64,000 nt of DNA from Anaerolineae bacterium. GTDB lineage: Bacteria > Chloroflexota > Anaerolineae > Aggregatilineales > Aggregatilineaceae. The DNA is taken from NCBI GenBank assembly GCA_023382715.1, contig JAHDWP010000005.1, positions 1 through 64,000 on the forward strand. Reading direction: 5' to 3'. This document shows, one piece after another, positions 6,186 to 25,300 of this stretch. A program made the position numbers and the translations under genes. The notes beneath the pieces are model-generated. The model worked only from the letters and a program-made list of their open reading frames with translations. It was not told the DNA's origin and made no database searches. Numbering within the stretch: the first letter of the stretch is position 1; every line of letters starts with the position of its first letter.

Positions 6186-6235
6186 GCAGAACCCTTCCTT
6201 AAAAGGTGCCTAGAGAATGTGTCTTGGCCAACAGT

Positions 6236-6991: not shown

Positions 6992-7133
6992 TGAGCATTC
7001 CTTTTCACGCTGGAGGAGCAAGCGGCGCGAGAGTAGGGTGAAGCACTCTGCTGGCCAGAGACTGCCCGACTGGCCGCGGGCTTGCGGGCACGACGGGCCA
7101 GGCCGCCTGCTCCTCAGAGATACCAGCCTATCT

Positions 7134-7160
7134 TGGGGGCGAGTGGCACACTCGCCCCCA
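7134..7160 (-). promoter_or_regulatory. Hairpin after the binding-protein gene
   Basis: A 12-bp perfect GC-rich stem (7134-7145 / 7149-7160) with loop GCA, 19 nt downstream of the binding-protein stop codon and upstream of the ATPase gene. No T tract follows on the minus strand, so it is more likely a processing or mRNA-stabilising hairpin than a full terminator. Such hairpins keep binding-protein mRNA above that of the membrane components. Confidence 0.55.
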
Positions 7161-7179
7161 GAGCAGCAACCGGATCGGG

Positions 7180-8190: not shown

Positions 8191-8452
8191 CTTAAAATCC
8201 TCCTTAGAAGGTAAGCAATGCGGGCAATTCTTACTGGAAGCGATCCCACCGCGTGGGGACTTCCTGCTTAAAGACGTGGCTCGGCGAAGGTGCCATCTTC
8301 CGCGAGACCTGGCGTCCTTTTGCACACCTTAAGCTTATGCTCGCTGGCGGAGCTTGTCAATGACTCGACAGATCGCTCGTGGGCCTCCGGCCCTGTGGCG
8401 ATCCTGGTGCAGAAAACCGGGATCGCCAAACGCCGGGCATACCGCGCCGTGC
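8191..8452 (-). promoter_or_regulatory. Long structured 5' leader of the importer operon
   Basis: If transcription starts near 8467, the message has about 275 untranslated bases. Hairpins are visible: GGCGATCC/GGATCGCC at 8398-8405/8420-8427, GGGCC/GGCCC at 8381-8393, and TCCCAC/GTGGGA around 8244-8259. No known riboswitch is recognised. The rest of the gap (8510-9090) has C-rich hairpin repeats at about 8570-8600 and 8680-8712 and no gene. Confidence 0.4.
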
Positions 8453-9135: not shown

Positions 9136-9161
9136 GAATGATTCTGGAGACTGGGGAGAGC

Positions 9162-10241
9162 ATGGCGGAGACAGACTCAAAGCGCGCAACGCTGAACGAC
9201 GTCGCCCAGGCGGTGGGCGTGTCATCGCAAACGGTGTCGCGCGTCGTCAACGGCCATCCTTACGTCTCCGACGAGACGCGCCGCCGCGTCCAGGACGCGA
9301 TCCGCAAGCTGGGCTACCGCCCTAACCGGGCGGCGCGCAGCCTGGCCACCCAACGCACGTGCATGTTGGGCATCGTCACCTTTGGCATTGATCATTACGG
9401 CCCGGCCCAGATGGTGACTCACGTCGAGCGGACGGCCAGGGCGCGCGGCTATGGTGTTACGCTCTCGGCCATCCGGGCGCTGACCCCGCACGAGATTCGC
9501 GCCGCGCTGGACGCTCTGGGCGGCAGCGTGGTGGACGGCCTGGTGCTGATCACGCCGGTGACCGGGCTGAGCGCCGCCGACATCGAGGCCTTGTGCGGCC
9601 ACATCCCCTTTGTCCAGATTGACACGGAGCTAGGGGCGAATGTGCCGTCCATTGTCATTGACCAGCATTTCGGCAGCCGCCTGGTCACCCAATACCTGAT
9701 AGACCTGGGCCACCGCGCCCTGTGCGAGATCAGCGGGCCGCTCAACTGGTACGGGGCGCAGGCCCGCCACGAAAGCTGGCTCAAGACCCTGCACCGGGCC
9801 GGGCTGACGCCCGGTCTGTCCGTCGAAGGAGATTGGACGGCGGAAGGCGGCTTTCGTGCTGCCCTGCGCCTGCTGGACGAGGGCGCTGTCTTCAGCGGCC
9901 TGGTGGTCGGCAACGATCAGATGGCGTTGGGGGCCATTCGCGCGCTGCGCGAGCGCGGGCTGCGCGTGCCGGAGGATGTGTCGGTGGTGGGATTTGACGA
10001 CATCCCCGAAGCCGCGTACTTCGAGCCACCCCTGACCACCGTCTGCCAGAACTTCGCGGCGCTGGGCGAGCAGAGCGTCGAATACCTGGTGTCGCTCATT
10101 GACAACCCGCTCACGCCGGTTCATCAGCGCGTGCTGCGCCCACAGTTGATCGAGCGCCATAGCGCCTGCCCGCCGCGCCAGGGGGCGTTCTTTCTGGAGG
10201 GCGAAATCGCACTGTCGAGGCGCAGCGAAGAGGCGGATTGA
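9162..10241 (+). CDS. LacI-family transcriptional regulator of the sugar importer operon
   Basis: A 359-residue repressor. The N-terminal helix-turn-helix (residues 8-28, LNDVAQAVGVSSQTVSRVVN) and hinge (about 48-60, with the Leu-Ala typical of the minor-groove helix) precede a sugar-binding core related to RbsB; VPEDVSVVGFDDIPEAAYF is the family signature. The start at 9162 has GGGGAG seven nt upstream; an ATG at 9138 lacks a site and would sit almost on the operator. It is divergent from the importer operon and should repress both operators until the sugar binds. Confidence 0.9.
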   Translation: MAETDSKRATLNDVAQAVGVSSQTVSRVVNGHPYVSDETRRRVQDAIRKLGYRPNRAARSLATQRTCMLGIVTFGIDHYGPAQMVTHVERTARARGYGVTLSAIRALTPHEIRAALDALGGSVVDGLVLITPVTGLSAADIEALCGHIPFVQIDTELGANVPSIVIDQHFGSRLVTQYLIDLGHRALCEISGPLNWYGAQARHESWLKTLHRAGLTPGLSVEGDWTAEGGFRAALRLLDEGAVFSGLVVGNDQMALGAIRALRERGLRVPEDVSVVGFDDIPEAAYFEPPLTTVCQNFAALGEQSVEYLVSLIDNPLTPVHQRVLRPQLIERHSACPPRQGAFFLEGEIALSRRSEEAD

Positions 10242-10252
10242 GGTTGGCGTGT

Positions 10253-10290
10253 CCCCTCGCCTGCGTGCAGGTGAAGGGTCTTCTTTTTGG
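10253..10290 (+). terminator. Rho-independent terminator after the LacI gene
   Basis: Arms 10253-10264 and 10267-10278 pair with one mismatch and one G-U wobble around a very short loop, and are followed by GTCTTCTTTTT. It starts 12 nt after the stop codon. It separates the LacI transcript from the downstream kinase. Confidence 0.55.
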
Positions 10291-10389
10291 CAAAGGATTT
10301 TTGATCATGGAATGTTCTTTCCGGCGCGCGATCGTACTGGTCGCCCTTCTGATTTTCCTCGCCCGCAGCGCCCACCAGGATGGTGCGCG

Positions 10390-11907
10390 ATGAGCCTGCT
10401 GGGCATTGACATCGGAACCACCGGCTGCAAGCTGCTCGCCCTGGCCACGGACGGGCAGATCATCGCCACCGCCGCCCGCGAATACGACACGCTGCGCCCG
10501 CAGCCCGACTGGGCCGAGCTGGACAGCGCGCGCGTCTGGGCGCTGGTCTGCGACGCCATCCGCGAAGTCGCCGCGCAGACAGCCCACGATCCCATCACCG
10601 CTATCTGCGCCGCTTCGATGGGCGAGGCCATGACGCCCGTCTCGGCGGAGCGCGCGATTCTCGGCAACTGCATCCTGGGCTTCGACACGCGCGGCGCGGA
10701 GACGCTGAATCAGTTGGCCGCGCTCGACCCGCTGGCCTTCTTCGCGCGCAGCGGCAATGCGCCCGCCGTCGTCTACGGCGGCCCCAAGCTAATCTGGCTG
10801 CGCGATCACCGCCCGGAGCTTTTCGAGAAGACGTACAAGTTCCTGTCCTGGGCGGACCTGGCCATGTACCTGCTGGGCGGCGAGCCAGTCGCCGACTTCG
10901 GGCTGGCCAACCGCTCGCTGTTCCTGGATGTGGAGGCGGAGGCGTGGTCGGGCGAGACGCTCGCCCTGGTGGGGATGCCCGCCGACAAGCTGCCCGCCCT
11001 GGCGCGCCCCGGCACGCCGGTGGGCACGGTGCCGCCCGCTGTGGCCGCCGAGCTGGGCCTGCCGCCCGGCGCGACTCTTGTCGTCGGCACGCACGATCAG
11101 TGCGCCAACGCCCTGGGCGCGGGGGCCATTCGCCCCGGCATGGCCGCCTACGGGCTGGGCACCTATGTCTGCATCACGCCCGTCTACGACACCCTCCCCC
11201 CCGCCGCGCCGATGATCGCCGCCGGGCTGAATGTCGAGCACCACACCGTGCCGGGTCTCTTCGTCAGCTTCTATTACAACCTGACCGGCGGCGCGCTGCT
11301 CAAGTGGTTCCGCGACACGCTCGCCCCGCTGGAGCACGCGGCAGCGCGGGCGCGCGGCGAGGATGTCTATGACCTGCTGCTGGCCGAGATGCCCGCCGGG
11401 CCGACCGGCCTGCTGGTGCTGCCCCACTTCGCGCCGACCGGCCCGCCCGCCCACGACCCACATCCCTATGGGCTGATCGCCGGGCTGACGCTGGCCACGT
11501 CGCGCGGCGAGTTCATCAAGGGGCTGCTGGAAGGCGTCACCTATTACTTCCGCGAGGGGCTGGATCACCTGGCGCGGGCGGGCATTGCCATCGAGGAGTA
11601 CCGCGTCACCGGTGGCGGTGCGCGCTCGGACGCCTGGCTGCAGATCAAGGCGGACATCCTGGGCAGACCGCTGGCCCGCCCGCGTATCACCGAGGCCGGC
11701 GCGCTCGGCGCGGCGATCCTGGCCGGGCTGGGGGCGGGCGTCTTCAGCAGCACGGAGGAGGCGGTGCGCGCCCTGGTGCAGGTCGAGCGCGTCTTCACAC
11801 CCGATGCGGTGCGCCATCGCCAGTACGAGGAACGGTTCGCCCTCTACGGGCAGTTATACCCGTTCAGCCGGGCGCTGCGCGATGCAGCCCCGGCATCTGT
11901 GCCGTGA
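10390..11907 (+). CDS. FGGY-family carbohydrate kinase, xylulokinase-like
   Basis: A 505-residue ATP-dependent sugar kinase. Phosphate loop 1 is GIDIGTTGCK at residues 5-14; the C-terminal ATPase fold has YRVTGGGARSDAWLQIKAD and EAGALGAAILAG (about 415-450). Length and domain order fit xylulokinase-like FGGY enzymes. The start follows an open frame without a good ribosome site, so the exact N-terminus rests on conservation of MSLLGIDIG. It lies between the LacI gene and araB in the same direction. The substrate (a ketopentose, another ketose or a polyol) cannot be read from the sequence. Confidence 0.85.
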   Translation: MSLLGIDIGTTGCKLLALATDGQIIATAAREYDTLRPQPDWAELDSARVWALVCDAIREVAAQTAHDPITAICAASMGEAMTPVSAERAILGNCILGFDTRGAETLNQLAALDPLAFFARSGNAPAVVYGGPKLIWLRDHRPELFEKTYKFLSWADLAMYLLGGEPVADFGLANRSLFLDVEAEAWSGETLALVGMPADKLPALARPGTPVGTVPPAVAAELGLPPGATLVVGTHDQCANALGAGAIRPGMAAYGLGTYVCITPVYDTLPPAAPMIAAGLNVEHHTVPGLFVSFYYNLTGGALLKWFRDTLAPLEHAAARARGEDVYDLLLAEMPAGPTGLLVLPHFAPTGPPAHDPHPYGLIAGLTLATSRGEFIKGLLEGVTYYFREGLDHLARAGIAIEEYRVTGGGARSDAWLQIKADILGRPLARPRITEAGALGAAILAGLGAGVFSSTEEAVRALVQVERVFTPDAVRHRQYEERFALYGQLYPFSRALRDAAPASVP

Positions 11908-12233
11908 GGGGTGGGCAGCGTGTCTGTACTTCTGAGGAACTTTAGAGACCGCTTGAGAAGTTGTTTCCCCCCACCCCAAACCCCTCTCCCACAAGGAGGG
12001 AGGGGCTTAGCGGGTGCGCTTTTCTCCCTTCCCCCACAAGGGGGGAAGGGTCGGGGATGGGGGTAAAGCCAGGCGCACGAGTTCTCAAACGGCCTCTTAT
12101 GCTGGATTGGCTGCCTTTTTCTCCATTTCTCAGGTTGAGCGGGGGCAAGGGCCGGGGATGGAGGGACGCAATGCGGCAGGGGCGATCTCGCTAGAAGTCG
12201 GCAGTCCTGGACAACGAAGGAGTGGAACCATCT
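11908..12233. other. Gene-free gap with C-rich inverted repeats
   Basis: Blocks of CCCCTCTCCCAC.. / GGAGGGAGGGG (about 11978-12010) and CTTCCCCCAC / GGGGGGAAGGG (about 12028-12052) form hairpins of the dispersed family. No gene is seen. A GAAGGAG ribosome site for araB lies at 12216-12222. Confidence 0.5.
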
Positions 12234-13901
12234 ATGGCGAACGACACATACGCGATTGGCGTGGACTTCGGGACGGAATCCGGGCGTGCGGTGATCGTGC
12301 GCGTTCGCGACGGGGCGGAGCTGGGCAGCGCCGTCTACCAGTACCCCGACGGCGTCATTGACGAGCGCCTGCCGACCAGCGGCGAGCGGCTGCCACCGGA
12401 GTGGGCGCTGCAAAACCCGGACGACTATATCGGCGTCTTCAAGAATGCGGTGCCGGCGGCGCTCAAGGCCAGCGGGATCGATCCGGCGGACGTGATCGGC
12501 ATCGGCATTGACTTCACCGCCTGCACGATGATGCCCACCCTGGCCGATGGCACGCCGCTGTGCCGCGTCCCGCAGTGGCGCGACAACCCGCACGCCTGGG
12601 TCAAGCTGTGGAAGCACCACGCCGCCCAGCCCGAAGCCGACATGATCAACGAGACGGCGCGGCAGATGGGCGAAGGCTGGCTGGGGCGCTATGGCGGCAA
12701 AATCTCATCGGAGTGGTTCTTCAGCAAGGCCCTGCAGATCCTCAACGAAGCGCCGGAAGCCTACCGCGCTGCCGAGCGGCTGATCGAAGCGGCGGACTGG
12801 GTGGTGTGGCAACTGTGCGGCGTCGAGACGCGCAACACCTGCACGGCGGGCTACAAGGCCATTTATCAGGACGGCAAATTCCCGGACAAGAAGTACCTGG
12901 CCGCGCTGCACCCAGAGCTGGCTGCTGTCGTCGAGGCGAAGATGGCCGCGCCGCTGGCCCCCCTGGGCGGGCGCGCCGGCGGCCTGACCGCCGAAGCCGC
13001 CGCCTGGATGGGCCTGAAGCCGGGCATCGCCATCGCCGTGGCCAACGTGGACGCGCACGTGACCGTGCCCGCCGCCCAGGTGACCGAGCCGGGGCGCATG
13101 GTCATGATCATGGGCACCAGCATCTGCCACATGGTGCTCAGCGAGACGCTGCACGAGGTGCCCGGCATGTGCGGCGTGGTGGACGGCGGGATCGTCCCCG
13201 GCCTGTACGGCTACGAGGCCGGGCAGAGCGGCGTGGGCGACATCTTCGCCTGGTTCGTGGACAACGCCGTGCCGCCCGAATATCACGAGGCGGCCCAAGC
13301 GCAGGGCATGGACCTGCACGCCTACCTGGAAGCCGAAGCCGCCCGCCAGAAGCCCGGCGAGCACGGCCTGCTGGCGCTCGACTGGTGGAACGGTAACCGC
13401 TCGGTGCTGGTGGACGTGGACCTGGGCGGCCTGCTGATCGGGGCCACGCTGGGCACGCGCGCCCCGGACATCTACCGCGCGCTGATCGAGGCGACGGCCT
13501 TCGGCACGCGGGTGATCATCGAGGCGTTCGAGCGCAGCGGTGTGCCGATCACCGAGCTGGTGGCGGCGGGCGGCCTGCCGGAGAAGAACAAGCTGCTGAT
13601 GCAGATTTACTCCGACGTGACGGGCCGCGAATTCCGCACCATCGGCAGCGCGCAGGGGCCGGCGCTGGGCAGCGCCATGCACGCGGCGGTGGCGGCGGGG
13701 GCTTACCCGGACATCCAGGCGGCAGCCCAGGCGATGGGCAAGCTCAAGGACGAGGTGTTCAGGCCCATTGCCGAGCACCAGGCCGTCTATGACCATCTGT
13801 TCGCCGAGTACGTCACGCTGTACGACTACTTCGGGCGCGGCGAGAACGACGTGATGAAGCGCCTGCGCAAGATTCGCAACCAGGCGAGAGGGTTGGAGTG
13901 A
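12234..13901 (+). CDS. araB: L-ribulokinase
   Basis: A 555-residue FGGY kinase of the AraB type, converting L-ribulose to L-ribulose 5-phosphate. The N-terminal phosphate loop GVDFGTESGRAV is at about 8-19, followed by the insert typical of ribulokinases; GMCGVVDGGIVPGLYGYEAG (about 310) and VAAGGLPEKNKLLMQIYSDV (about 442) are characteristic. Length matches AraB (about 560). ATG 12234 is preferred over the GTG at 12222, which lies inside the GAAGGAG site. The stop overlaps the araD start by one base (TGATG), so the genes form an operon. Confidence 0.92.
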   Translation: MANDTYAIGVDFGTESGRAVIVRVRDGAELGSAVYQYPDGVIDERLPTSGERLPPEWALQNPDDYIGVFKNAVPAALKASGIDPADVIGIGIDFTACTMMPTLADGTPLCRVPQWRDNPHAWVKLWKHHAAQPEADMINETARQMGEGWLGRYGGKISSEWFFSKALQILNEAPEAYRAAERLIEAADWVVWQLCGVETRNTCTAGYKAIYQDGKFPDKKYLAALHPELAAVVEAKMAAPLAPLGGRAGGLTAEAAAWMGLKPGIAIAVANVDAHVTVPAAQVTEPGRMVMIMGTSICHMVLSETLHEVPGMCGVVDGGIVPGLYGYEAGQSGVGDIFAWFVDNAVPPEYHEAAQAQGMDLHAYLEAEAARQKPGEHGLLALDWWNGNRSVLVDVDLGGLLIGATLGTRAPDIYRALIEATAFGTRVIIEAFERSGVPITELVAAGGLPEKNKLLMQIYSDVTGREFRTIGSAQGPALGSAMHAAVAAGAYPDIQAAAQAMGKLKDEVFRPIAEHQAVYDHLFAEYVTLYDYFGRGENDVMKRLRKIRNQARGLE

Positions 13902-14557
13902 TGCTCGAAAAACTGCGCAAGGTCGTCGCCGATCTGCACGCCGAATTGCCGCGCAACAACCTGGTGACCTGGACCAGCGGCAACATCAGCGGGCGCGACG
14001 CGGCGACGGGTCACGTGGTCATCAAGCCCAGCGGCGTCACCTTCGACGAGCTGGGACCGCACAACATGGTCGTGGTGGACGCGGACGCGCGCGTGGTCGA
14101 GGGCGACCACAAGCCCTCGTCCGACACGGCCACACACTGCGCCATCTACCGCGCCATGCCTCAGGTCGGCGGCATCGTGCACACGCACAGCCCCTATGCC
14201 ACCGCCTGGGCCGCGCTGGGCCGCGACATCCCGTGCGTGCTGACGGCGATGGCCGACGAGTTCGGCGGGGTGATCCCCTGCGGCGGCTTCGCGCTGATCG
14301 GCGGCGAGGAGATCGGGCGCGAAGTGGTGCGCGTGCTGCGCGAGGGGCCAAACCCGCGCTCGCCAGCGGTGATCATGCAGAATCACGGCGTGTTCACCGT
14401 CGGGCCGACGCCCAGGGCGGCGGTCAAGGCGGCGATCATGTGCGAGGACGTGGCGCGCACCGTCTTCCTGGCCTGCCAACTGGGCGAGCCGATCCCGATC
14501 GCGGCGGAGGACATCGCCAGGCTGCACGAGCGCTATACGACGGTCTATGGGCAGTAG
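13901..14557 (+). CDS. araD: L-ribulose-5-phosphate 4-epimerase, class II aldolase fold
   Basis: A 218-residue zinc enzyme interconverting L-ribulose 5-phosphate and D-xylulose 5-phosphate. Visible: TWTSGNISGRD (about 24-34), KPSGV, SSDTATH with the catalytic acidic region, zinc ligands in VHTHSPYATAWA (His pair at about 92-94), and QNHGVF. Some L-fuculose-phosphate aldolases look alike, but direct coupling to araB supports AraD. The start ATG overlaps the araB stop. Confidence 0.85.
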   Translation: MLEKLRKVVADLHAELPRNNLVTWTSGNISGRDAATGHVVIKPSGVTFDELGPHNMVVVDADARVVEGDHKPSSDTATHCAIYRAMPQVGGIVHTHSPYATAWAALGRDIPCVLTAMADEFGGVIPCGGFALIGGEEIGREVVRVLREGPNPRSPAVIMQNHGVFTVGPTPRAAVKAAIMCEDVARTVFLACQLGEPIPIAAEDIARLHERYTTVYGQ

Positions 14558-14566
14558 AACCGATCT

Positions 14567-14650
14567 CACCCCCGTTTCGCTTCGCTCAACTTCCCCTTCT
14601 CCGTTGACGGAGAGGGGGCAAGCCGAGCGTAGCGAGGCTGGGGGTGAGGT
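14567..14650. repeat. CCCTCTCC-type inverted repeat, second copy
   Basis: Near-copy of the block at 40-132: CTCACCCCC outer arm, inner CCCCTTCTCCGT / ACGGAGAGGGGG, and the same AAGCCGAGCGTAGCGAGGCT stretch. It lies just after araD. Confidence 0.7.
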
Positions 14651-14673
14651 AAAGCGGCGCAGGCTCGGAGATC

Positions 14674-14706
14674 AGACTTCCGAAGTCTCGAAGACTTCGG
14701 AAGTCT
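14674..14706. repeat. Palindromic element, AGACTTCC family
   Basis: Two 15-bp arms, each AGACTTCC/CGGAAGTCT-type, at 14674-14688 and 14692-14706 with loop CGA. The arms are themselves partly palindromic. It lies between araD and the isomerase-like gene. Confidence 0.8.
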
Positions 14707-14769
14707 AGAGGCGGGAATCTCCTGCGCCGATTTCTATGAGAGTGGGCCTATCTATCACGAGGGAGAATC

Positions 14770-16188
14770 ATGAAGAAAGAGATCACCTTAGGGCTAATCG
14801 TCGGCAACCGGGGCTTCTTCCCCAGCCATCTGTGCGAGTCCGGGCGCGAGACCGTGCTGAAGGTGCTCGCCGAGGAGGGCATCAAGGTCGTTGCGCTCGG
14901 CGTGCAGGACACCGAATACGGCAGCGTGGAGAGCCTGGGCGACGCGCACAAGTGCGCCGAGCTGTTCCGCGCCCACCGCGACGAGATTGACGGCGTGCTG
15001 GTGACGCTGCCCAACTTCGGCGACGAGCGCGGCACCTCCAACACGCTGCGCTTCGCCGACCTGGGCGTGCCGGTGCTCATCCACGCCTTCCCGGACGACC
15101 CAACCAAGATGGACCTGCAATGGCGGCGCGACAGCTTCTGCGGCAAGATGTCGCTGTGCAACAACCTGCGCCAGTACGGTATCCCCTTCAGCCTGACGGC
15201 GCTGCACACGGTAGACCCTGAGTCGGAGAGCTTCCGCGCCGACCTGCGCCGCTTCGCGGCGGTGTGTCGCGTGGCGCGCGGGATGCGCCGCGCCCGCTTC
15301 GGGATGCTCGGCGCGCGCCCGGTGGCCTTCAACACGGTGCGCTTCAGCGAGAAGCTCTTCGAGCATGCCGGCCTCTCGGTCGAGACGCTCGACCTGTCCG
15401 AAGCCTACGGGCGCATCGCCCGCCTGGCCGACGACGATGCGCGCGTGACGGCCAAGCTCGATGCGATCAAAGCCTACGCCAGCGTCGCCAGGATTCCGCC
15501 GGTGGCCCTGAACAAGATCGCCAAGCTGGGCGTGGTGATGGACGAGTGGATCGCCGCCAATGAATATGACGCGACGGCTGTCCAGTGCTGGACGAGCCTG
15601 CAGGAGTTCTTCGGCGTGGTGCCCTGCACGCTGATGAGTATGCTCAGCGAGGGGCTGATGCCCTCCGCCTGCGAGACGGACATCGCCGGGACCGCGGCCA
15701 TGTACGCCATGGCCCTCGCCTCTGGCAAGCCGAGCGCGCTGGTGGACTGGAACAACAACTACGGTGACGACCCGGACAAGGGCGTGGTCTTCCACTGCTC
15801 CAACTTCCCCAAGAGCGTCTTCGTGGATGAAGTCCAGGACATCAACTACCAGGACATCATCGCCGGCACGGTGGGCAAAGACAACACCTGGGGCACGCTG
15901 CAGGGGCGCGTCAAGGCCGCGCCGTTCACCTACCTGCGCATCAGCACCGACGACCTGAACGGAAAGATCGTCGCCTACGTGGGCGAGGGTGAGTTCACCA
16001 CCGACCCGATCAGCACCTTCGGCGGGCACGGCGTGGTGCGCGTGCCCAACTACCAGAAGCTGCTGGCCTACATCTGCGAGAACGGCTACGAGCATCATGT
16101 CGCCGTCAACCAGACGCTGGTCGCCGATGCCGTCTACGAGGCGCTGACCAAGTACCTCGGCTGGGGCGTGTACTACCACAAGGGGTAG
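14770..16188 (+). CDS. L-fucose/L-arabinose isomerase-family protein
   Basis: A 472-residue protein of the FucI/AraA-like isomerase superfamily (COG2407 type): aldose-ketose isomerisation with a divalent metal. Visible are a Rossmann-like N-domain (LGLIVGNRGFFPSHLCESGR), the central CWTSLQEFFGVVPCTLMSML, the catalytic-type EGLMPSACETDIAGTAAMYA with the Glu and Asp expected as metal ligands (about 297-318), and a C-terminal GGHGVVRVPNYQ. It follows araB-araD with a 212-nt gap, and no classical AraA is in the window, so it may serve as the L-arabinose isomerase. Substrate preference is inferred from context only. Confidence 0.75.
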   Translation: MKKEITLGLIVGNRGFFPSHLCESGRETVLKVLAEEGIKVVALGVQDTEYGSVESLGDAHKCAELFRAHRDEIDGVLVTLPNFGDERGTSNTLRFADLGVPVLIHAFPDDPTKMDLQWRRDSFCGKMSLCNNLRQYGIPFSLTALHTVDPESESFRADLRRFAAVCRVARGMRRARFGMLGARPVAFNTVRFSEKLFEHAGLSVETLDLSEAYGRIARLADDDARVTAKLDAIKAYASVARIPPVALNKIAKLGVVMDEWIAANEYDATAVQCWTSLQEFFGVVPCTLMSMLSEGLMPSACETDIAGTAAMYAMALASGKPSALVDWNNNYGDDPDKGVVFHCSNFPKSVFVDEVQDINYQDIIAGTVGKDNTWGTLQGRVKAAPFTYLRISTDDLNGKIVAYVGEGEFTTDPISTFGGHGVVRVPNYQKLLAYICENGYEHHVAVNQTLVADAVYEALTKYLGWGVYYHKG

Positions 16189-16507
16189 CGGTGCGCCGGG
16201 GCAGATGCGCAGCGCCCCTCCCCCTGGAGGTGCCACGCCCAGCGAAGCAAGTCCCCCTCTCTAGCCGAGCTAGAGAGGGGGATTGAGGGGGTGAGGCATA
16301 AAGGCCCCCTCCCCGGCGCCAGATAGTTTCCGCGCATGCTATAATCTCGCCGTTACGCTGCGGCTGAAATTCAGGCCCTTTTCATATTCTCGCCACGTTT
16401 CGACTTCATAGAACCGTTCAATCCAGGCTATACTGAAGGCGGACCGTCTGAGGCGCGGGTGCCGCGTTCACGGCAGGCAGTGCCCGCTGTATGGGAGGGT
16501 GTGGGTG
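16189..16507. other. Gene-free gap with hairpin repeat
   Basis: It holds a 13-bp CCCCCTCTCTAGC hairpin (16253-16265/16269-16281, loop CGA) of the dispersed family, then an A/T-richer promoter stretch for the protease gene. Confidence 0.6.
16337..16345 (+). promoter_or_regulatory. Candidate extended -10 promoter for the M6 protease gene
   Basis: TGCTATAAT is a perfect extended -10 element, about 160 nt before the ATG; no good -35 is seen. An alternative is TTCATA-18-TATACT at 16405-16434. Confidence 0.35.
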
Positions 16508-19500
16508 ATGAAACGGACTCATAGGGTCTTTCATAGGGCGGGGCTGCTCTCTGCAACGGTGATCGCCCTGCTGCTGACCGTGTCGCTGGTCGCGGCGGCC
16601 CAGATGGAGTCGCCTGAAACCGGCGACTCCCGGGTGTCGGGCCTGGCCCAGGCCACGCCGGTCAAGCCGCCGGTTTCCGGCGCGCAGGCAAGCCCGCTGC
16701 GCGTGATGGTGCCCACCGACCAGACCTGGCAGGCACTGCGGGCCGCCGGCCTCAGCGACATCACGCAGCTTTCGCCCTACCTCGACCCGGTCGCCTCGTT
16801 CTCGCCCGGCCCGCGCATGGAGCTATTCCCCGCGCCAGGAGGCGCGCCGGGCTTTGAAGCGGCCCCGGCCAACCCCTTCCGCACGCTGGCCATCCTGGTG
16901 CAGTTCACCGACAAGCCGGCCCAGGTGGGCGCGGCGTTCTTCGACACGCTGGTCTTTGGGGCGAGCGGCGGGACCGTGCGCGGCTACTACCAGGAAGTGA
17001 GCTACGGCCTGCTGGATATTGTCACGCTCAACCTGCCCAGCAGCATGGGCTGGGTGAGCGCTCCGCAGACTTACGCCTACTACACCAACGGTAGCAACTG
17101 CACGGGCAGCTACCCGAATAATTGCCAGCGCCTGGCCGAGGATGCGGTGGCGCTGGTCAACCCGGTGGTGAACTTCGCCAACTACGACAATAACAACGAC
17201 GGCTATGTGGATACCGTCTTCATCATTCACTCCGGCACCGGAGCCGAGCTCAGCGGCGACCCGAACATCATCTGGTCGCACTCGTGGTGGACGGTCAGCG
17301 AGCCGCTGGTGGACGGCGTGCGCGTCGGCTCGTACATTACCATGCCAGAGTTGTGGACAACACCCGGCGACATGACGCACGGCGTCTACGTGCACGAGCT
17401 GGGCCACGCCTTCGGCCTGCCCGACCTGTACGATATTGACATTGACATTGACAACTCTTCGTGGGGTATCGGCAATTGGAGCCTGATGTCCGGCGGTTCG
17501 TGGAATGGCACCCTGGGCAACTCCCCGGCGCACCTGGACGCCTGGTCGCGCGTGTACCTGGAATTCAACCCGGTGGTCAATATCACCGGGCACAACGGGA
17601 CGATCAGCCTGCCCAATGTGCAGCAGAACCGGATCAACGCCATCTATCGCTACAACTCCGGCAAGGCCAACGAGTACTGGCTGCTCGAAAACCGGCAGCA
17701 GATCGGCTCGGACGCGGCGCTGCCGGGCAGCGGCCTGCTGATCTGGCATGTGGACAGCAACCTGTCCGGCAGCAACCGCTACGAGTGCAAGCAGGTCAAT
17801 AATTACCAGTGCTCGGCGGCCAATCAGCACTTCCGCGTGGCGCTGGAGCAGGCCGACGGTCGCCTGGACCTGGAATACAAACGCAACCAGGGCGACGCCG
17901 GCGACCCGTTCCCCGGCTCGACTGGCAAGACATCCTTCAACTTCACCACGAACCCCAACAGCACGTCCTACTACTCGACGACCAACTGGGGCCTGGACGT
18001 AAGCAGCATCAGCCCGTCGGCCAGCACCATGACGGCCTATATTGGCGATCCTGACACCCAGACGCCGCCGCTATTGCTCTCGCCGGCCAACGGCACTCCC
18101 ACCAACGACAACACGCCGACCTTCACCTGGGGGGCGGTGACGGGAGCGACCTCGTACCGCATCCAGGTGAGCAAGAACGCCGCGTTTTCCAGCACGGTGG
18201 TCAACTCGACCAAGAGCGGCACGACGCACACGCCGGGAACGGCGCTGGCGGACGGGCTGTACTACTGGCGCGTGCAGGCCAGGAGCGCGAGCGGCATCTG
18301 GGGGTCGTGGAGCGCCGTGTGGACGGTGACCGTTGACACGGCCAAGCCCGCCAAGCCGGTGCTGCTCTCGCCGGAGAAGGATGCCCTGGTGACGACCAAC
18401 CGGCCCAGCTTCGACTGGGGCGATGTGCCGGATGCCGCGCGCTACGACCTACAGGTGGACAACTCCTCGGCGTTCGGCAGCCCGGAGGTGGTGGCTGCGC
18501 CCACTGGCTCGGCCTATACGGCGACGGTGCCGCTGGCCGACGGGCGCTACTACTGGCGGGTGCGGGCGGTGGACCTGGCGGGCAACGTAGGGTCCTGGAG
18601 CAGCGCCTGGACGGTGTGGGTGGACGTTGATCCCGCTCCGGCCCCGACTCTGCTCACGCCGCCGAATGGCGCACCCACCAACGACAACACGCCGACCTTC
18701 ACCTGGGGGGCGGTGCCTGGGCTGACCTCGTACCGCATCCAGGTGAGCAAGAACGCCGCGTTTTCCAGCACGGTGATCAACTCGACCAAGAGCGGCACGA
18801 CGCACACGCCGGGAACGGCGCTGGCGGACGGGCTGTACTACTGGCGGGTGCAGGCTAAGGGGGCGGATGGCATCTGGGGGCTGTGGAGCGCGGTGTGGAC
18901 GGTGACCGTTGACACGGTCAAGCCCGCCAAGCCGACGCTGCTCTCGCCGGAGAAGGATGCCCTGGTGACGACCAACCAGCCCAGCTTCGACTGGGACGAT
19001 GTGCCGGATGCCGTGCGCTATGACCTGCAGGTGGACAACTCCTCGGCGTTCGGCAGCCCGGAGGTGGTGGCTGCGCCCACTGGCTCGGCCTATACGGCGA
19101 CGGTGCCGCTGGCCGACGGGCGCTACTACTGGCGGGTGCGGGCGGTGGACCTGGCGGGCAACGTAGGGTCCTGGAGCAGCGCCTGGACGGTGTGGGTGGA
19201 CGTTGATCCCGCTCCGGCCCCGACTCTGCTCACGCCGCCGAATGGCGCACCCACCAACGACAACACGCCGACCTTCACCTGGGGGGCGGTGCCTGGGCTG
19301 ACCTCGTACCGCATCCAGGTGAGCAAGAACGCCGCGTTTTCCAGCACGGTGATCAACTCGACCAAGAGCGGCACGACGCACACGCCGGGAACGGCGCTGG
19401 CGGACGGGCTGTACTACTGGCGGGTGCAGGCTAAGGGGGCGGATGGCATCTGGGGGCTGTGGAGCGCGGTGTGGACGGTGACCGTTGACACGGTCAAGCC

Positions 19501-20956
19501 CGCCAAGCCGACGCTGCTCTCGCCGGAGACGAAAGCGATCCTCAACACGAGCCAGCCCGCGCTCGACTGGAGCGATGTGGCCGATGCGGCGCACTATGAA
19601 TTGCAGGTGGACAACTCCTCGACCTTCGGCAGCCCTGAGGTGTCCACCAGCGTGACCCCCTCGGCCTACACGGTGTCGCCACCGCTGCCCAATGGCAAGT
19701 ACTTCTGGCGCGTGCGCACCTACGACCTGGCGGGTAACAGAAGCGGCTGGACATCCGCGCGCAGCTTCACCCTGACCTACGCGCCTGCGCCGCCGGAGAT
19801 GGCCACGCCTACCCCCACGCTCGCCCTCACGCCCACGCCAGAGACGCCGGTCAGCGGGCCGGGCCTGATCGAGGCGGAGAGCAATTGGGTGGGGCGCAGT
19901 GGGGCCTGGACTGCGCACGAGACGGCGGCGGCCAGCGGCGGGGGCTACCTTTACAGCAGCGGCAGCGTCGAAGATGCCCTGACCCTGACTTTCCAGGGCG
20001 CGCAGGTGAGCGTGATCTACGTCAAGCACCCGGCGCTGGGCGTGATCGTGGTTGAGATTGACGGGACGCCGGCCCAACTGCTGGACAGCGCGGCCCCGGA
20101 GAGCGTCTTCGGCGCGCGGGCAACCTTCGCCCTGGCCGAGGGCCAGCACACGCTGCGCGTCTACCCGATGATGGGCACCATCGCCCTGGACGCCTTCCTG
20201 GTCGAGGCCGGGGTGACCCCCACTGTCGTGCCGGAGGCGACCGCCGAAGTGCCCGTCACGCCGGGCGCCGAGCTGACGGCTGAGCCGCCTGTCGAGCTGA
20301 CGGCTGAGCCGACCGTCGAGCCGACCGCGACACCCCCGCCGCTGCTCACGCCCACGCCGACCGTCACGCCCGACCCGCTGACGATGGTGATCGAGGCGGA
20401 GAGCGCGAGCGTGCTGCCCGGCGGCCTGTGGACGCGGGTGGAGAGCCTGGCGGCCAGCGGCGGCGCGTACCTGATGAGCAGCGGCCAGGAAGCCAGGGAG
20501 CCGGACGCGCTGACGCTCGTCTTCAGCGGCGCGCGCGTTGAGGTGATCTACGCGACCGGCCCGGCGCTGGGCAAGTTCATCGTCGAGGTGGACGGGACGC
20601 CCGTGCAGCTTGTGGATGCGCAGGCAGATCTGCCGGACTTCGCCGCGCGGCTGGCCTTCACGCTGGGGGCGGGGCAGCATACGCTGCGCCTCGTCGTCAG
20701 CGAGGGCGTGGTCGCGGTGGATGCGTTCGTGGTGCCGCTGGAAATCACTCTGCCCGCGACGCCCATCCAGCCGCCTACCGAGCCGCCGACTCTGACGCCG
20801 ACGGCGACACCGCTCCCGACCGAGGAGCCGCCCACGCCGGAGCCGCCGACGGCCACGCCGCTCCCGACCGAGGAGCCGCCCACGCCGGAACCGCCAACGG
20901 CCACGCCGGAGCCGCCCACGCTGGAGCCGACCGAGGGCGGTAACGCGCCGGGGTAA
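16508..20956 (+). CDS. Secreted M6-family metalloprotease with FnIII-like repeats and two binding-like domains
   Basis: A 1482-residue exported protein. Signal peptide at about residues 1-30 (LLSATVIALLLTVSLVAAA). The M6 peptidase domain spans about 110-510 with the zinc motif HELGHAFGLPD at 296 and the downstream GNWSLMSGGSWNG segment, followed by six FnIII-like domains (about 517-1094; motifs PTFTWGAV, SYRIQVSKN, GLYYWRVQA alternating with FDWGDVP, YDLQVDNSS). Then come two similar beta-sandwich-like domains starting LIEAESN and VIEAESA (about 1117-1234 and 1293-1409), resembling carbohydrate-binding modules, and a Pro/Thr/Glu tail of PTATPLPTEEPPTPEP repeats, perhaps a wall spacer. ATG 16508 follows GGGAGGG. 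Likely extracellular protein degradation. Confidence 0.85.
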   Translation: MKRTHRVFHRAGLLSATVIALLLTVSLVAAAQMESPETGDSRVSGLAQATPVKPPVSGAQASPLRVMVPTDQTWQALRAAGLSDITQLSPYLDPVASFSPGPRMELFPAPGGAPGFEAAPANPFRTLAILVQFTDKPAQVGAAFFDTLVFGASGGTVRGYYQEVSYGLLDIVTLNLPSSMGWVSAPQTYAYYTNGSNCTGSYPNNCQRLAEDAVALVNPVVNFANYDNNNDGYVDTVFIIHSGTGAELSGDPNIIWSHSWWTVSEPLVDGVRVGSYITMPELWTTPGDMTHGVYVHELGHAFGLPDLYDIDIDIDNSSWGIGNWSLMSGGSWNGTLGNSPAHLDAWSRVYLEFNPVVNITGHNGTISLPNVQQNRINAIYRYNSGKANEYWLLENRQQIGSDAALPGSGLLIWHVDSNLSGSNRYECKQVNNYQCSAANQHFRVALEQADGRLDLEYKRNQGDAGDPFPGSTGKTSFNFTTNPNSTSYYSTTNWGLDVSSISPSASTMTAYIGDPDTQTPPLLLSPANGTPTNDNTPTFTWGAVTGATSYRIQVSKNAAFSSTVVNSTKSGTTHTPGTALADGLYYWRVQARSASGIWGSWSAVWTVTVDTAKPAKPVLLSPEKDALVTTNRPSFDWGDVPDAARYDLQVDNSSAFGSPEVVAAPTGSAYTATVPLADGRYYWRVRAVDLAGNVGSWSSAWTVWVDVDPAPAPTLLTPPNGAPTNDNTPTFTWGAVPGLTSYRIQVSKNAAFSSTVINSTKSGTTHTPGTALADGLYYWRVQAKGADGIWGLWSAVWTVTVDTVKPAKPTLLSPEKDALVTTNQPSFDWDDVPDAVRYDLQVDNSSAFGSPEVVAAPTGSAYTATVPLADGRYYWRVRAVDLAGNVGSWSSAWTVWVDVDPAPAPTLLTPPNGAPTNDNTPTFTWGAVPGLTSYRIQVSKNAAFSSTVINSTKSGTTHTPGTALADGLYYWRVQAKGADGIWGLWSAVWTVTVDTVKPAKPTLLSPETKAILNTSQPALDWSDVADAAHYELQVDNSSTFGSPEVSTSVTPSAYTVSPPLPNGKYFWRVRTYDLAGNRSGWTSARSFTLTYAPAPPEMATPTPTLALTPTPETPVSGPGLIEAESNWVGRSGAWTAHETAAASGGGYLYSSGSVEDALTLTFQGAQVSVIYVKHPALGVIVVEIDGTPAQLLDSAAPESVFGARATFALAEGQHTLRVYPMMGTIALDAFLVEAGVTPTVVPEATAEVPVTPGAELTAEPPVELTAEPTVEPTATPPPLLTPTPTVTPDPLTMVIEAESASVLPGGLWTRVESLAASGGAYLMSSGQEAREPDALTLVFSGARVEVIYATGPALGKFIVEVDGTPVQLVDAQADLPDFAARLAFTLGAGQHTLRLVVSEGVVAVDAFVVPLEITLPATPIQPPTEPPTLTPTATPLPTEEPPTPEPPTATPLPTEEPPTPEPPTATPEPPTLEPTEGGNAPG
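18060..19795 (+). repeat. Tandem FnIII-coding DNA repeats, 576-bp period
   Basis: Domains alternate A1-B1-A2-B2-A3-C. The segment at about 18453-18953 recurs almost base for base at 19029-19529, an offset of 576 bp (two domains, 192 residues). B1 and B2 differ only in a few bases of their first half. This indicates recent in-frame duplication. Confidence 0.85.
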
Positions 20957-21023: not shown

Positions 21024-21139
21024 TTGTTGTATCAGCCTCGTCCCGCCCAATTTGCGGGCGGCGAGATCTGCATCAGTGAACCGGGCAAAAGTGAGGTCCG
21101 TAGGGGCGTATCGCATACGCCCCGTCTACCATGCCCGGA

Positions 21140-22960
21140 TCAGGCGGTTTCCAGCAGGGCGGCCAGGCCCAGCCTGCGCAGGCGCTCCGGTGTGGGCACG
21201 CCATCGCTGTCCCAGCCCATGATGCGATAGTACTCGTCGAGCATCGGCTCCAGCTCGACCACGTGCCCCGCCGCCGGGCCGGAGGCCATCGGCTGGCTCA
21301 GGTTGCGCGCGGGCAGCGTATCGTGGGCGCGGGCGAAGCCCTCGCGGGCGTTGAACAGGCGGGCCAGCGTCGAAACACGCTCGCCGAGCAGTTGCAGGTC
21401 GGCGGCGGTGGGGTAGTCGAAGCCGGTCGCCGCCGCGACAAGCTGCCACAACTCCTTGAGCGTCATGCCATAGCCGGGGAACAGGCACAGGCAGGCGCTG
21501 TCCCAGGCGGCGGTGTCGGCCTGCGTGTCGCGGAAAAGCTGCGGCTTGCCCTCGATGATCAGCGGATCGGCGGCGCCGCCGAACAGCTCGCCGAGCGGCG
21601 CGCCGCGCAGATGGCACGCCCCCCGTTCGGAGATGGCGTAGGCCAGGGCCGTGCCTTTGGCCGCACTGGGATGGTAGGCGGGCATCTCCAGCTTCTTGGC
21701 GTGCATGGCGAACGGTTTCCCCTGCGGGTAGCGTTCGGCGATAGCGGCCACACCCTGGGCCAGCCACACGCCGCAGCCCTCGCCTCTGGCCATCTTCTCG
21801 ACCAGCGCCTCGGCGGCGACCCCGTCGCCCCAGACGGGCGCGATGCCGTCCAGCTCGGCGGCGGTGATCTGCCCGCGCTGATACAGCTCCATGACGAAGC
21901 CGATCACGCCGCCGACGCTGATCGTGTCCATGCCGTATTCGTCGCACCACCAGTTGAGGCGGATGATCGTCTCGCGGCTGCCGATGGCGCAGTTCGGCCC
22001 CAGGGCGAAGATCGTCTCGTATTCCGGCCCCTCGATCACCTTGCCATCGTCCAGCGGGATCGTCCACTTGCCGCAGCCGATGGGACAGCCGAAACAGGCG
22101 TAGTCCTTCTTCCAGTTGTGGGCGCGGAAGGCCGCGCCGGACACTTCATCGGCCTCGTCGAACTGCCCTTCCTGGAAGTTGCGCGTGGGCAGCGCGCCCA
22201 TCACGTCAACGATCTCCAGGATGTTGGCCGTGCCTTCGCGGGTCATCAGCGTCGTCTTGCTGGACATGCGCACGGCGCGATAGGCCAGTTGCAGGGCGCG
22301 CTCGTACTTTTCCTTGTCGTGGACGTGCACCGGGCGATTGCCGCGCGCCACGATGGCCTTGAGCCGTTTCGACCCCATCACCGCGCCGACGCCGCCGCGC
22401 GCCAGGGCGCGCGACTCGTTGAAGATGCCGGCCACGTTGCGCAACTGCTCGCCCGGCGGGCCGATGACCAGCGACTGCCAGTCGTGGCCGAAGTCGGCGC
22501 GCAGGCGCTCGCTGGCTTCGGTGATGGTCGTGCCCCACAGATGATCGGCGGGGCGCAGCGCGACTTCGTCGTTGTCAATGACCAGCATCAGCGGCGAGTC
22601 CGCCGCACCGGTGATCACCAGCGCGTCGTAGCCGGCGTACTTGAGCATCTGCCCCCAGTAGCCGCCACAGTAGGCGTCGAAGTAGGTGCCGGTGGCCGGG
22701 CTGCGCGTGGTGACGCCGAAGCGCCCCGCCGTCGGGGCGGTCGTGCCGGTCAGCGGGCCGTTGTGGAAGATCAGCCTGTTGGCGGGAGAGAGCGGGTCGG
22801 TGCCCGGCGCCTGCTCGGTGTAGAGCAGCCACGCGCCCAGCCCTTTGCCGCCCAGCAGCAGCGGCATCATCTCGGCGGGCAGCGGCGTAGTGGTGATCTG
22901 GCCGCTGGTCAGGTCTACGCGCAGGATGCGGTCGCAGTATGCCCGTTGGGTGAGGTCCAT
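21140..22960 (-). CDS. aor: Aldehyde:ferredoxin oxidoreductase, tungsten type
   Basis: A 606-residue AOR-family oxidoreductase that oxidises an aldehyde to its acid (or the reverse) with a tungsto-bispterin cofactor and one [4Fe-4S] cluster. The N-domain shows LLGGKGLGAWLLY (about 35-47) and PLTGTTAPTAGRFGVTTRSP (about 69-88, cofactor binding). The cluster ligands are C289, C292, C296 (ACFGCPIGC) and a Cys in ACLCLFPGYG (about 490-492). Length is normal. It is the last gene of a three-gene operon 12 nt downstream of the aldolase-ferredoxin fusion, which is the obvious electron acceptor. The aldehyde substrate may come from the aldolase. Confidence 0.9.
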   Translation of the reverse strand: MDLTQRAYCDRILRVDLTSGQITTTPLPAEMMPLLLGGKGLGAWLLYTEQAPGTDPLSPANRLIFHNGPLTGTTAPTAGRFGVTTRSPATGTYFDAYCGGYWGQMLKYAGYDALVITGAADSPLMLVIDNDEVALRPADHLWGTTITEASERLRADFGHDWQSLVIGPPGEQLRNVAGIFNESRALARGGVGAVMGSKRLKAIVARGNRPVHVHDKEKYERALQLAYRAVRMSSKTTLMTREGTANILEIVDVMGALPTRNFQEGQFDEADEVSGAAFRAHNWKKDYACFGCPIGCGKWTIPLDDGKVIEGPEYETIFALGPNCAIGSRETIIRLNWWCDEYGMDTISVGGVIGFVMELYQRGQITAAELDGIAPVWGDGVAAEALVEKMARGEGCGVWLAQGVAAIAERYPQGKPFAMHAKKLEMPAYHPSAAKGTALAYAISERGACHLRGAPLGELFGGAADPLIIEGKPQLFRDTQADTAAWDSACLCLFPGYGMTLKELWQLVAAATGFDYPTAADLQLLGERVSTLARLFNAREGFARAHDTLPARNLSQPMASGPAAGHVVELEPMLDEYYRIMGWDSDGVPTPERLRRLGLAALLETA

Positions 22961-22972
22961 GCTCGCTCTCTC

Positions 22973-24298
22973 CTAGTCGGTCAGCGGATCGAACGCTTTG
23001 CGCTCGTCAATGAAGATGGCGCCGGTCGGGCAGATGCGCGCGCATTCGGGCGCGCCGCCGCACAGATCGCACACCACCGGGTACCAGGGCAGCTCCAGTT
23101 CTGGCGCGGCGGGCGTGCCGTTGCCGACGATGCGCACGCCCTCGTCCGAATGAACGATGACCTGCGTCGGGCAGATCTCGACGCACTTGCCGCAGCTATC
23201 GCAGCGCTCGACCAGCAATTCGACGGCACCGCTTTCCGGGTGCCAGCGCAGGGCGTCGGTCGGGCAGACGTCAATACACTTGCGACACAGCGTGCAGAAC
23301 ATGACCTTGAACTGGCTGGCGTCTCTGCCGGGATCAATGCGCAGGCGGGTCAGGTGCGTGCTGTAGCCGCCGCCGTCGTGGCTGGCGACGCAGGCGACGA
23401 CGCACAGGTTGCAGCCGGTGCACTTGGCCGGGTGCGCCTTGAGCTTGATGAAGTCCCACACCTCGCCACGCAGGGCCTCGTCCACCGTCCAGCCCTGGTG
23501 GGCAATACCGCACAACTGCTCGATCATGCGCTGCGGGTTCGGCGACTTGGTGACGTTGCGACCCATCAGGCAGCCCGCCGCGCCCGCTTCCTGCGCTTCG
23601 GCGTAGAGTTCCAGCGCATCGCGCTCGTTGTCGGAGCGCGCGCCGCCCAGCACCAGCACGGGCACGTCCGCCGCCTGCACCAGCGCGCGAAAGCTGTCCA
23701 CGTCGCCGGTGTAAGGGATTTTGAGCGCGTCTGCGCCGATCTCCACCGCTTCGCGTGCGCCCAGGATGAGCAGCTCGACCAGGTTCGCGCCGGTCACCTG
23801 CCCGCCGTAGGCGATCGGCTCGATGATGCAGGGCAATCCGGCGCGGCGGCACTCGTTGACGAAGCGGGCGCATTTGTCCACGCCCTCGGCTTCGATGCCG
23901 TCGGTGTAGCCGACGAAGAGGTAGATGGTGATCGCCGACGCGCCCAGGGCGACCGCCTGCTCGGCGGTGAGCATCTTATAGTTGCGCAGCAAGCGCTGCG
24001 GGACGGCGTTGGCCACGTTCGACGTGCCCAGGCGCGGCATGTTCATCCAGTCGGCGCGGACGATCAGCGCCGGGCCGTCGCGCCCCTGGAAGAGCGGAGC
24101 CAGGCGCGTCGCCTGGCCGGGGCTGAGCAGGATGCCGTCCACGCCGCCGCGAATGACCGCTTCCGTCACCGGGCGAAGCTGGACGACGTTGGGCGTCACG
24201 TCGCTCATGTAACCATGATCGGCGGCGACGCAGATCGCACGCCCATCACCGTGCCGGTTGAACAGCCGATCCATGCGAGCCTGCAAGCCTGCTTTCAT
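22973..24298 (-). CDS. DhnA-type class I aldolase fused to a four-cluster ferredoxin
   Basis: A 441-residue fusion. Residues 1 to about 280 form a DhnA/LacD/LsrF-like TIM barrel: AADHGY (25-30), YLFVGYTDG, and Schiff-base lysine K193 in LKIPYTGD. Residues 293-423 carry sixteen cysteines in four ferredoxin motifs: C293/296/299/303, C335/338/341/345, C366/369/372/376, and C410/413/419/423 (last ICPTGAIF), as in AorA- or DmsB-type electron-transfer subunits. Next to AOR the ferredoxin part should carry AOR electrons, while the barrel may make or bind the aldehyde. I know of no described enzyme with this architecture; the joint role is inference. A GHGDGR-rich N-terminus follows the chosen ATG. 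Confidence 0.85.
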   Translation of the reverse strand: MKAGLQARMDRLFNRHGDGRAICVAADHGYMSDVTPNVVQLRPVTEAVIRGGVDGILLSPGQATRLAPLFQGRDGPALIVRADWMNMPRLGTSNVANAVPQRLLRNYKMLTAEQAVALGASAITIYLFVGYTDGIEAEGVDKCARFVNECRRAGLPCIIEPIAYGGQVTGANLVELLILGAREAVEIGADALKIPYTGDVDSFRALVQAADVPVLVLGGARSDNERDALELYAEAQEAGAAGCLMGRNVTKSPNPQRMIEQLCGIAHQGWTVDEALRGEVWDFIKLKAHPAKCTGCNLCVVACVASHDGGGYSTHLTRLRIDPGRDASQFKVMFCTLCRKCIDVCPTDALRWHPESGAVELLVERCDSCGKCVEICPTQVIVHSDEGVRIVGNGTPAAPELELPWYPVVCDLCGGAPECARICPTGAIFIDERKAFDPLTD

Positions 24299-24307
24299 GG
24301 CGTCCCC

Positions 24308-25087
24308 CTACACCGGTTCGGGCACGGAGCCGTGCACGAGCGCCCTGAAAGCTGTCACGAGCGCCGCCGGGTCTGCGCTGGCGAAGACGCGCGCGTCCAG
24401 CCAGAGGCCCGTCGCGCCGAGGCTCAGCGCTTCGTTGAGCGCCGCGTCCGCCGGGTCGAGCGTCTCCGCCCGGACCCACACCGGCAGGCCGGCGGCCATC
24501 GTCAGGATGGTGCGCAGCGAGTCCGCGCCGGGCCAGGGGATAACCACGCCATCGGCCCCGCACTCGACGCTGTAGGACACGCCCAGCTCAATGGCCTTGC
24601 TGTGCAGCACGACGCGCGGGCCGATGGGCTGCACGTCGGCGATCAGCGGCAGGCCGAGCGGCGTGCCCGTCAGGGCAAGCTGCACGATCTCGCGCAGGCA
24701 GCCGGCCTCGGTGTCTTCGTCGTGGCCGAGCAGCACATGGGCGACCAGCGCGCTCGCGCCCAGGTCGAGGGCGTCGGCGGGGTCGAGCAGGGGGATGTGG
24801 AAGATCGTTTCGGGCGGCAGCACGAAGTCCGCCCCGCGCAGGGCGTTCGTCCAGCCGGCGCGGATGAGCAGGGCCGCGTCCGCGCGGGTGCGCCCGCTCA
24901 GGCGGCGGGCCTGTCCGGGGCTGGTGACGAGGCCATCGGCCAGGGGCAGCACCGGCTCCACCGCCGGGGCGAAGCGCTCCAGGCCGGGGGGCGCGCCCAG
25001 GATCAGCCCGGCGCTGGTATCCACCACCAGGCTGCGCCCGTCGGCGGGGCGGACGAATTCGTTGATGCGGTACAGCTTGTTATCCAT
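24308..25087 (-). CDS. Aldolase-like paralogue lacking the catalytic lysine
   Basis: A 259-residue relative of the neighbouring barrel: LADGLVTSPGQARRL (about 49-63) aligns with VDGILLSPGQATRL there, and LLIRAGWTNALRG with LIVRADWMNMPRL. But the position of K193 is V182 (GVVIPWPGAD) and the DHG motif is DTS, so Schiff-base chemistry is improbable. It is probably a non-catalytic subunit or a binding or regulatory partner, or has different chemistry. First gene of the AOR operon, 9 nt before the fusion gene; frame and codon use look intact, so it is not an ordinary pseudogene. Confidence 0.75.
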   Translation of the reverse strand: MDNKLYRINEFVRPADGRSLVVDTSAGLILGAPPGLERFAPAVEPVLPLADGLVTSPGQARRLSGRTRADAALLIRAGWTNALRGADFVLPPETIFHIPLLDPADALDLGASALVAHVLLGHDEDTEAGCLREIVQLALTGTPLGLPLIADVQPIGPRVVLHSKAIELGVSYSVECGADGVVIPWPGADSLRTILTMAAGLPVWVRAETLDPADAALNEALSLGATGLWLDARVFASADPAALVTAFRALVHGSVPEPV

Positions 25088-25137
25088 GGCCTCTCCTTTG
25101 CGCTCCAGCGGCGGGCTGCCCTGCCCGCGCCCTTCCC

Positions 25138-25143
25138 ATTATA
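25138..25143 (-). promoter_or_regulatory. Candidate -10 box of the AOR operon
   Basis: The minus strand reads TATAAT 50 nt upstream of the first operon gene. No convincing -35 is present at 17 nt, so the assignment is tentative. Confidence 0.3.
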
Positions 25144-25300
25144 CCGTCCCTGGCGGGCCGGTGGGCATGTACAGAGGCGACAAATGGAACGATTTACGGC
25201 GCGATTCGGCACTGTTTGCGTGGGGGGTCGCTATGACGAAAGTCAAATCCCGCTACAATGGGAGCCATGATCTCGGTGAGGAGTGAGGAGGCGCGCCGTA

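Follow-up and report, generated by a model that had tools for sequence, protein, structure and literature searches.

In the published classification of tungsten oxidoreductases (WORs), a large subunit accompanied by the four-cluster small subunit WorS defines Class II, and only five of the 92 clades include an enzyme whose physiological role has been defined (PMC13328260). Class II WORs, such as PfASOR/WOR5 (6x6u, 6x1o) and CbGOR, combine a tungstopterin large subunit with a small subunit carrying four [4Fe-4S] clusters, and the two genes are adjacent. Class I enzymes, including PfAOR, which is the most similar to the aldehyde oxidoreductase (AOR) described here, lack an AorA-type subunit (PMC13328260, PMC10413684). 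The first-pass annotation of this DNA, which stated that a separate ferredoxin of the AorA type is used in known AOR systems, was therefore right only in part. In the Class III complex AorABC of Aromatoleum aromaticum (8c0z), the polyferredoxin AorA and the FAD/NAD subunit AorC (WorN) accompany the large subunit. DhnA-type class I aldolases, represented by the ADH synthase MJ0400, the archaeal FBP aldolase, and LsrF, have a barrel fold with a Schiff-base lysine, an Asp-His motif, and GG/GRN phosphate motifs.

Here, we describe a three-gene operon that shares features with all of these systems. It is located in a 64,000-nucleotide stretch of DNA from an Anaerolineae bacterium, called the window, and encodes a lysine-less aldolase paralogue (PAR), an aldolase-ferredoxin fusion (FUS), and an AOR. 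As in Class II WORs, the genes for the large subunit and the four-cluster small subunit are adjacent. However, the part corresponding to the small subunit forms the C-terminal half of a fusion with an aldolase, the third gene encodes the aldolase paralogue, and the large subunit is, among solved structures, closest to PfAOR, which itself has no small subunit. As in AorABC, an AorA-like polyferredoxin is encoded beside an AOR large subunit, whereas the adjacent genes include no AorC-like subunit, and FUS has no room for the filament helix of AorA. The FUS barrel has the fold and motifs of the DhnA-type aldolases, but it scores well under every equivalog cut-off, has Leu or Ile in place of Tyr146 of the archaeal FBP aldolase, is fused to a ferredoxin, and is paired with a lysine-less paralogue. 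No description of an aldolase-ferredoxin fusion with an AOR was found in the open literature searched.

Organization of the operon

The three genes are arranged head to tail, with gaps of 9 bp between PAR and FUS and 12 bp between FUS and AOR (Table 1). The start codons of FUS and AOR are each preceded by a purine-rich, Shine-Dalgarno-like stretch, and the FUS frame is uninterrupted over its 441 residues. Both flanking genes are on the plus strand, and PAR, FUS, and AOR thus stand alone as a unit in the window. AOR is followed by a gene (16499-20956, plus) that encodes a large secreted protease-like protein with an HELGH motif and near-identical internal repeats. An open frame of 1379 residues is positioned antisense to the whole operon (21131-25270, plus), and antisense frames overlap some of the relatives too. 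This frame is probably a mirror artefact of high GC content and could lead gene callers astray.

Table 1 Features of the PAR-FUS-AOR operon in the window
Feature	Position	Strand	Description	Place in operon
PAR	24308-25087	minus	259-aa DhnA-type barrel, lysine-less, without phosphate motifs	gene 1
FUS	22973-24298	minus	441 aa, predicted DhnA-type class I aldolase and four-cluster WorS/AorA-like ferredoxin	
FUS residues 1-285	23444-24298	minus	aldolase barrel: D27, H28, E160, K193, GG218-219, G246-R247-N248	
FUS residues 286-441	22976-23443	minus	ferredoxin, 16 Cys; CDLCGGxPxC motif as in WorS	
AOR (WorL)	21140-22960	minus	606-aa predicted tungsten aldehyde oxidoreductase large subunit	

Conservation of the fusion and of its gene neighbours

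When 84,980 species genomes were scanned, the fusion was identified in 13 further loci, all labelled as Anaerolineae or Chloroflexota MAGs, with identities of 53-92%. The scan used six exact peptide patterns and may therefore have missed remote fusions. Whole-genome searches located the fusion in four of the five searched genomes of the window's genus, and also in another genus of the family, a second family of the order, and another order. The first-pass annotation had asked whether the two halves might be separate, unlinked genes elsewhere, or whether the fusion might be a frameshift. An assembly error or frameshift was ruled out as the source, because 13 other assemblies carry the fusion, and these loci likewise speak against unlinked halves.

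FUS is preceded by PAR and followed by AOR in all readable loci (12 of 12 in each case). The further possibility raised in the first-pass annotation, that AOR is absent from most neighbourhoods, is thus not borne out. Locus L016 has an unreadable stretch of N immediately upstream of FUS and was left out of the PAR count; L019, which ends inside FUS, was left out of the AOR count. The AOR of L020 is split over three frames, which is interpreted as an error or as decay confined to this record.

The dN/dS values of PAR, FUS, AOR, and both halves of FUS are between 0.03 and 0.28, indicating purifying selection. Between the three genes, pairwise distances are correlated (0.93-0.94), a value that includes the effect of their shared ancestry. 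Linkage to AOR is seen with the fused form but not with the closest unfused barrels. None of the 17 extended neighbourhoods contained an unfused barrel clustered with an AOR, and a plasmid search returned matches to the barrel only.

The large subunit is a predicted tungsten enzyme

AOR matches the families AFOR_N (5.7e-72, 242 bits, cut-off 29.8) and AFOR_C (2e-124, 416 bits, cut-off 27), and the P. furiosus AOR structure 1aor (4e-135). The tungsten-site residues T244, E313, Y429, and H450, assigned according to PMC13328260, correspond to T243, E313, Y427, and H448 of PfAOR. Together with the cluster cysteines C289, C292, C296, and C492, they are invariant in 11 sequences. AOR is therefore predicted to be a tungsten aldehyde oxidoreductase, with the cofactor assigned by homology. 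MoaA was found in nine of the 11 fusion-bearing genomes.

AORs linked to the fusion score at least 974 bits, and the closest non-fusion AORs at most 570 bits. No DhnA barrel is encoded within 1.5 kb of the latter, one of which has a WorS-like gene. The nearest AORs mostly lack a small-subunit gene beside them. A second AOR is present in the same genome as the operon (G000, C42:16059-17387, L169).

The ferredoxin half of FUS resembles WorS and AorA

Pfam places 4Fe-4S domains at approximately residues 288-430 of FUS. The 16 cysteines form four groups (293, 296, 299, 303; 335, 338, 341, 345; 366, 369, 372, 376; and 410, 413, 419, 423) and are expected to hold four [4Fe-4S] clusters. All are invariant among the 13 aligned members except C369, which is His in L020. 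Matches to AorA (8c0z_C) and to the small subunits of WOR5 (6x6u_B, 6x1o_B) extend over all four clusters of the ferredoxin half, including the CDLCGGxPxC motif, in agreement with its earlier designation as AorA-type. This part of the AlphaFold model of FUS has low confidence.

The resemblance to the WorS/AorA small subunits points to a Class II (WorL and WorS) AOR in which WorS carries an aldolase. A four-cluster small subunit is encoded beside the large one, as in Class II, though as a fusion domain. AorC/WorN, the subunit typical of Class III, was not found: in the window, the protease-like gene that follows AOR lies on the opposite strand, and the annotated neighbours elsewhere are TauE or unrelated. 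AorA has a C-terminal filament helix of 20 residues (PMC10413684). FUS ends 18 residues past its last cysteine, which is too short for a cluster loop and such a helix, and so FUS lacks it. The first clusters of AorA contact AorB, and the N-terminus of AorA accepts a tag (PMC10413684). An N-terminal barrel would therefore be compatible with docking of AOR to the ferredoxin half.

FUS combines a putative active aldolase with the ferredoxin

Pfam identifies residues 23-250 of FUS as a DeoC/LacD aldolase (8.6e-26), and in the alignment, the Schiff-base lysine of both MJ0400 and the archaeal FBP aldolase falls on K193. The residues D27, H28, E160, K193, GG218-219, and GRN246-248 are kept in all 13 aligned copies. 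The proton-donor Tyr146 of the archaeal FBP aldolase is Leu or Ile in FUS and is replaced in most of the unfused relatives examined too. The barrel of the AlphaFold model is mostly confident (pLDDT of 73-94 in most ten-residue blocks, lower in two loops), and its best PDB match is the ADH synthase 2qjg. Judged by homology, with the fold, Schiff-base lysine, and phosphate motifs present, the barrel is a DhnA-type class I aldolase. Its scores are below the curated cut-offs of TIGR01949 (2-amino-3,7-dideoxy-D-threo-hept-6-ulosonate synthase; 138 against 299 bits) and NF040816 (archaeal class I fructose-bisphosphate aldolase; 129 against 430 bits). The barrel is likely to be catalytically active. 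The description of FUS in the first-pass annotation, as a DhnA-type barrel with K193 fused to a 16-cysteine, four-cluster ferredoxin, is upheld by the single frame, the Pfam domains, and the conserved residues.

The FUS barrels form one fully supported clade in the tree, as do the PAR sequences, and the placement of the two clades relative to each other is unsure, with long branches. Val occupies the Schiff-base position in PAR of the window, and in all 13 copies the lysine is replaced by Val, Ala, Ile, or Ser and the GG/GRN motifs are missing. Pfam yields only a sub-threshold DeoC match for PAR and NCBIfam a match to ADH_synth (1.8e-18) below cut-off. Without the Schiff-base lysine, PAR is related to the DhnA-type aldolases in fold only. 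Its AlphaFold model is poor (pLDDT 44) and was left out of account. PAR is predicted to be a non-catalytic partner subunit. A pseudogene was ruled out by purifying selection (dN/dS 0.06-0.28).

Proposed mechanism

We estimate at about 0.5 the probability that the operon encodes a Class II-type tungsten AOR, whose WorS/AorA subunit carries an N-terminal DhnA-type aldolase, together with a predicted dead aldolase paralogue, and that these proteins act as follows. The FUS barrel would bind a phosphorylated ketose in its GG/GRN phosphate site, and Lys193 would form a Schiff base with it, in the manner of DhnA-type aldolases. Cleavage of this sugar phosphate by the barrel would yield a triose-phosphate-like fragment and a free (hydroxy)aldehyde, which AOR, docked on the ferredoxin half, would oxidize to the acid. 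The four clusters of FUS would pass the electrons to soluble ferredoxin. PAR would join the FUS barrels in a ring without contributing to catalysis. The Schiff-base chemistry, the tungsten cofactor, and the docking are suggested by homology, and the substrate, direction, channelling, and role of PAR are purely hypothetical parts of the scheme. Several observations count against the scheme: Leu or Ile replaces the proton-donor Tyr in FUS, most of the nearest AORs and the nearest solved one, PfAOR, lack a small subunit, a separate class II aldolase adjoins the trio in three loci, and the neighbouring genes vary between lineages.

A physical complex of AOR and FUS is considered probable. Slightly less than even odds are given to the barrel and AOR working one after the other on a single substrate, although this would be the simplest reason for the fusion. 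The conserved three-gene operon suggests a built-in route from a sugar phosphate to an acid. The channelled aldehyde-to-acid module proposed in the first-pass annotation is thus supported in part. A more elaborate version, which we regard as doubtful, is a single complex in which the aldolase hands the aldehyde directly to AOR, the aldolase polypeptide serves as the electron wire, and live and dead barrels form a mixed ring, possibly reversible to build sugar phosphates from acids. Because an aldolase is covalently joined to the subunit for electron transfer, the fusion indicates a likely partner reaction, and the substrate of an as yet uncharacterised AOR can thereby be tested directly. If the proposed mechanism is correct, C-C bond cleavage and low-potential electron transfer are coupled in one polypeptide, which is unusual.

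Genomic context and alternative explanations

The neighbouring genes vary between lineages without any universal set, and no pathway gene next to the trio is common to the genus of the window itself. In L010, L012, and L019, the trio is immediately preceded by genes for a fucose-isomerase-like protein, a class II aldolase, and an FGGY kinase. A LarA racemase homologue is located just before PAR in L011, L013, and L017 (score of 500 in L013, curated cut-off 460), and a TauE-family gene directly downstream of AOR in five loci. The sugar-pathway, LarA, and TauE neighbours are a hint that the substrate is a hydroxy-aldehyde derived from a sugar and the product the corresponding 2-hydroxy acid. Several of the unfused relatives of the barrel also have an FGGY kinase next to them, in L117 and L118 together with a class II aldolase and in others alone; two Rubrobacter plasmids are among the relatives with this neighbour.

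Where a separate class II aldolase adjoins the trio, the FUS barrel may not be the source of the aldehyde, and this second aldolase leaves room for a structural role of the barrel. The barrel and PAR would then be only a hub, in which DhnA-type rings gather several AOR-ferredoxin units and the aldehyde has another source, such as the class II aldolase; PAR is already a lysine-less barrel. However, this aldolase was found in only three of the 11 fusion-holding genomes. Furthermore, FUS has retained K193, D27, H28, and the GG/GRN motifs without exception, even though PAR shows that the fold can lose them, and the FUS barrel is under strong purifying selection. A purely structural barrel is thus considered unlikely.

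The proposed reaction could also run in reverse, with low-potential ferredoxin reducing an acid to the aldehyde on AOR, and the barrel trapping the aldehyde by aldol addition to form a sugar phosphate. The addition would pull the otherwise unfavourable acid reduction, which counts in favour of this direction. Reduction of acids by AORs has been described (PMC9295118, PMC10816221, PMC12727526). However, the isomerase, FGGY kinase, LarA, and TauE genes flanking the trio in other genomes look catabolic, and we regard the reverse direction as improbable. Even less credible is an organosulfonate system, such as one converting sulfolactaldehyde to sulfolactate with TauE as the exporter. The position of the TauE-family genes agrees with it, PfASOR, a Class II WOR, oxidizes taurine (PMC13328260), and the sole NCBIfam match of the neighbouring isomerase is the sulfoquinovose isomerase SftI. 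However, this match reaches 92 bits against a cut-off of 700, a homologue of the isomerase is part of the window's own arabinose-type cluster, and TauE is absent from the window's operon.

Other genes in the window and near related operons

The isomerase and kinase homologues of the window (10249-16188) are separated from the trio by the large plus-strand gene and were not counted as linkage. The region 9138-16188 (plus) encodes a LacI regulator, a xylulokinase-like kinase, an L-ribulokinase (above cut-off), an AraD-like epimerase, and a fucose/arabinose-isomerase-like protein, and is a probable L-arabinose cluster. Two relatives of MtaA/CmuA-like corrinoid methyltransferases, well below cut-off, are encoded at 1409-2443 and 2650-3738 (minus), near a sugar ABC transporter (5169-8325). 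UPF0261 proteins are encoded near the trio in L011 (6231-8288), L013 (1587-2849), and L017 (1390-2616), accompanied by a PEP-hydrolase-like protein in L011 and by a creatininase-family gene in L013 and L017.
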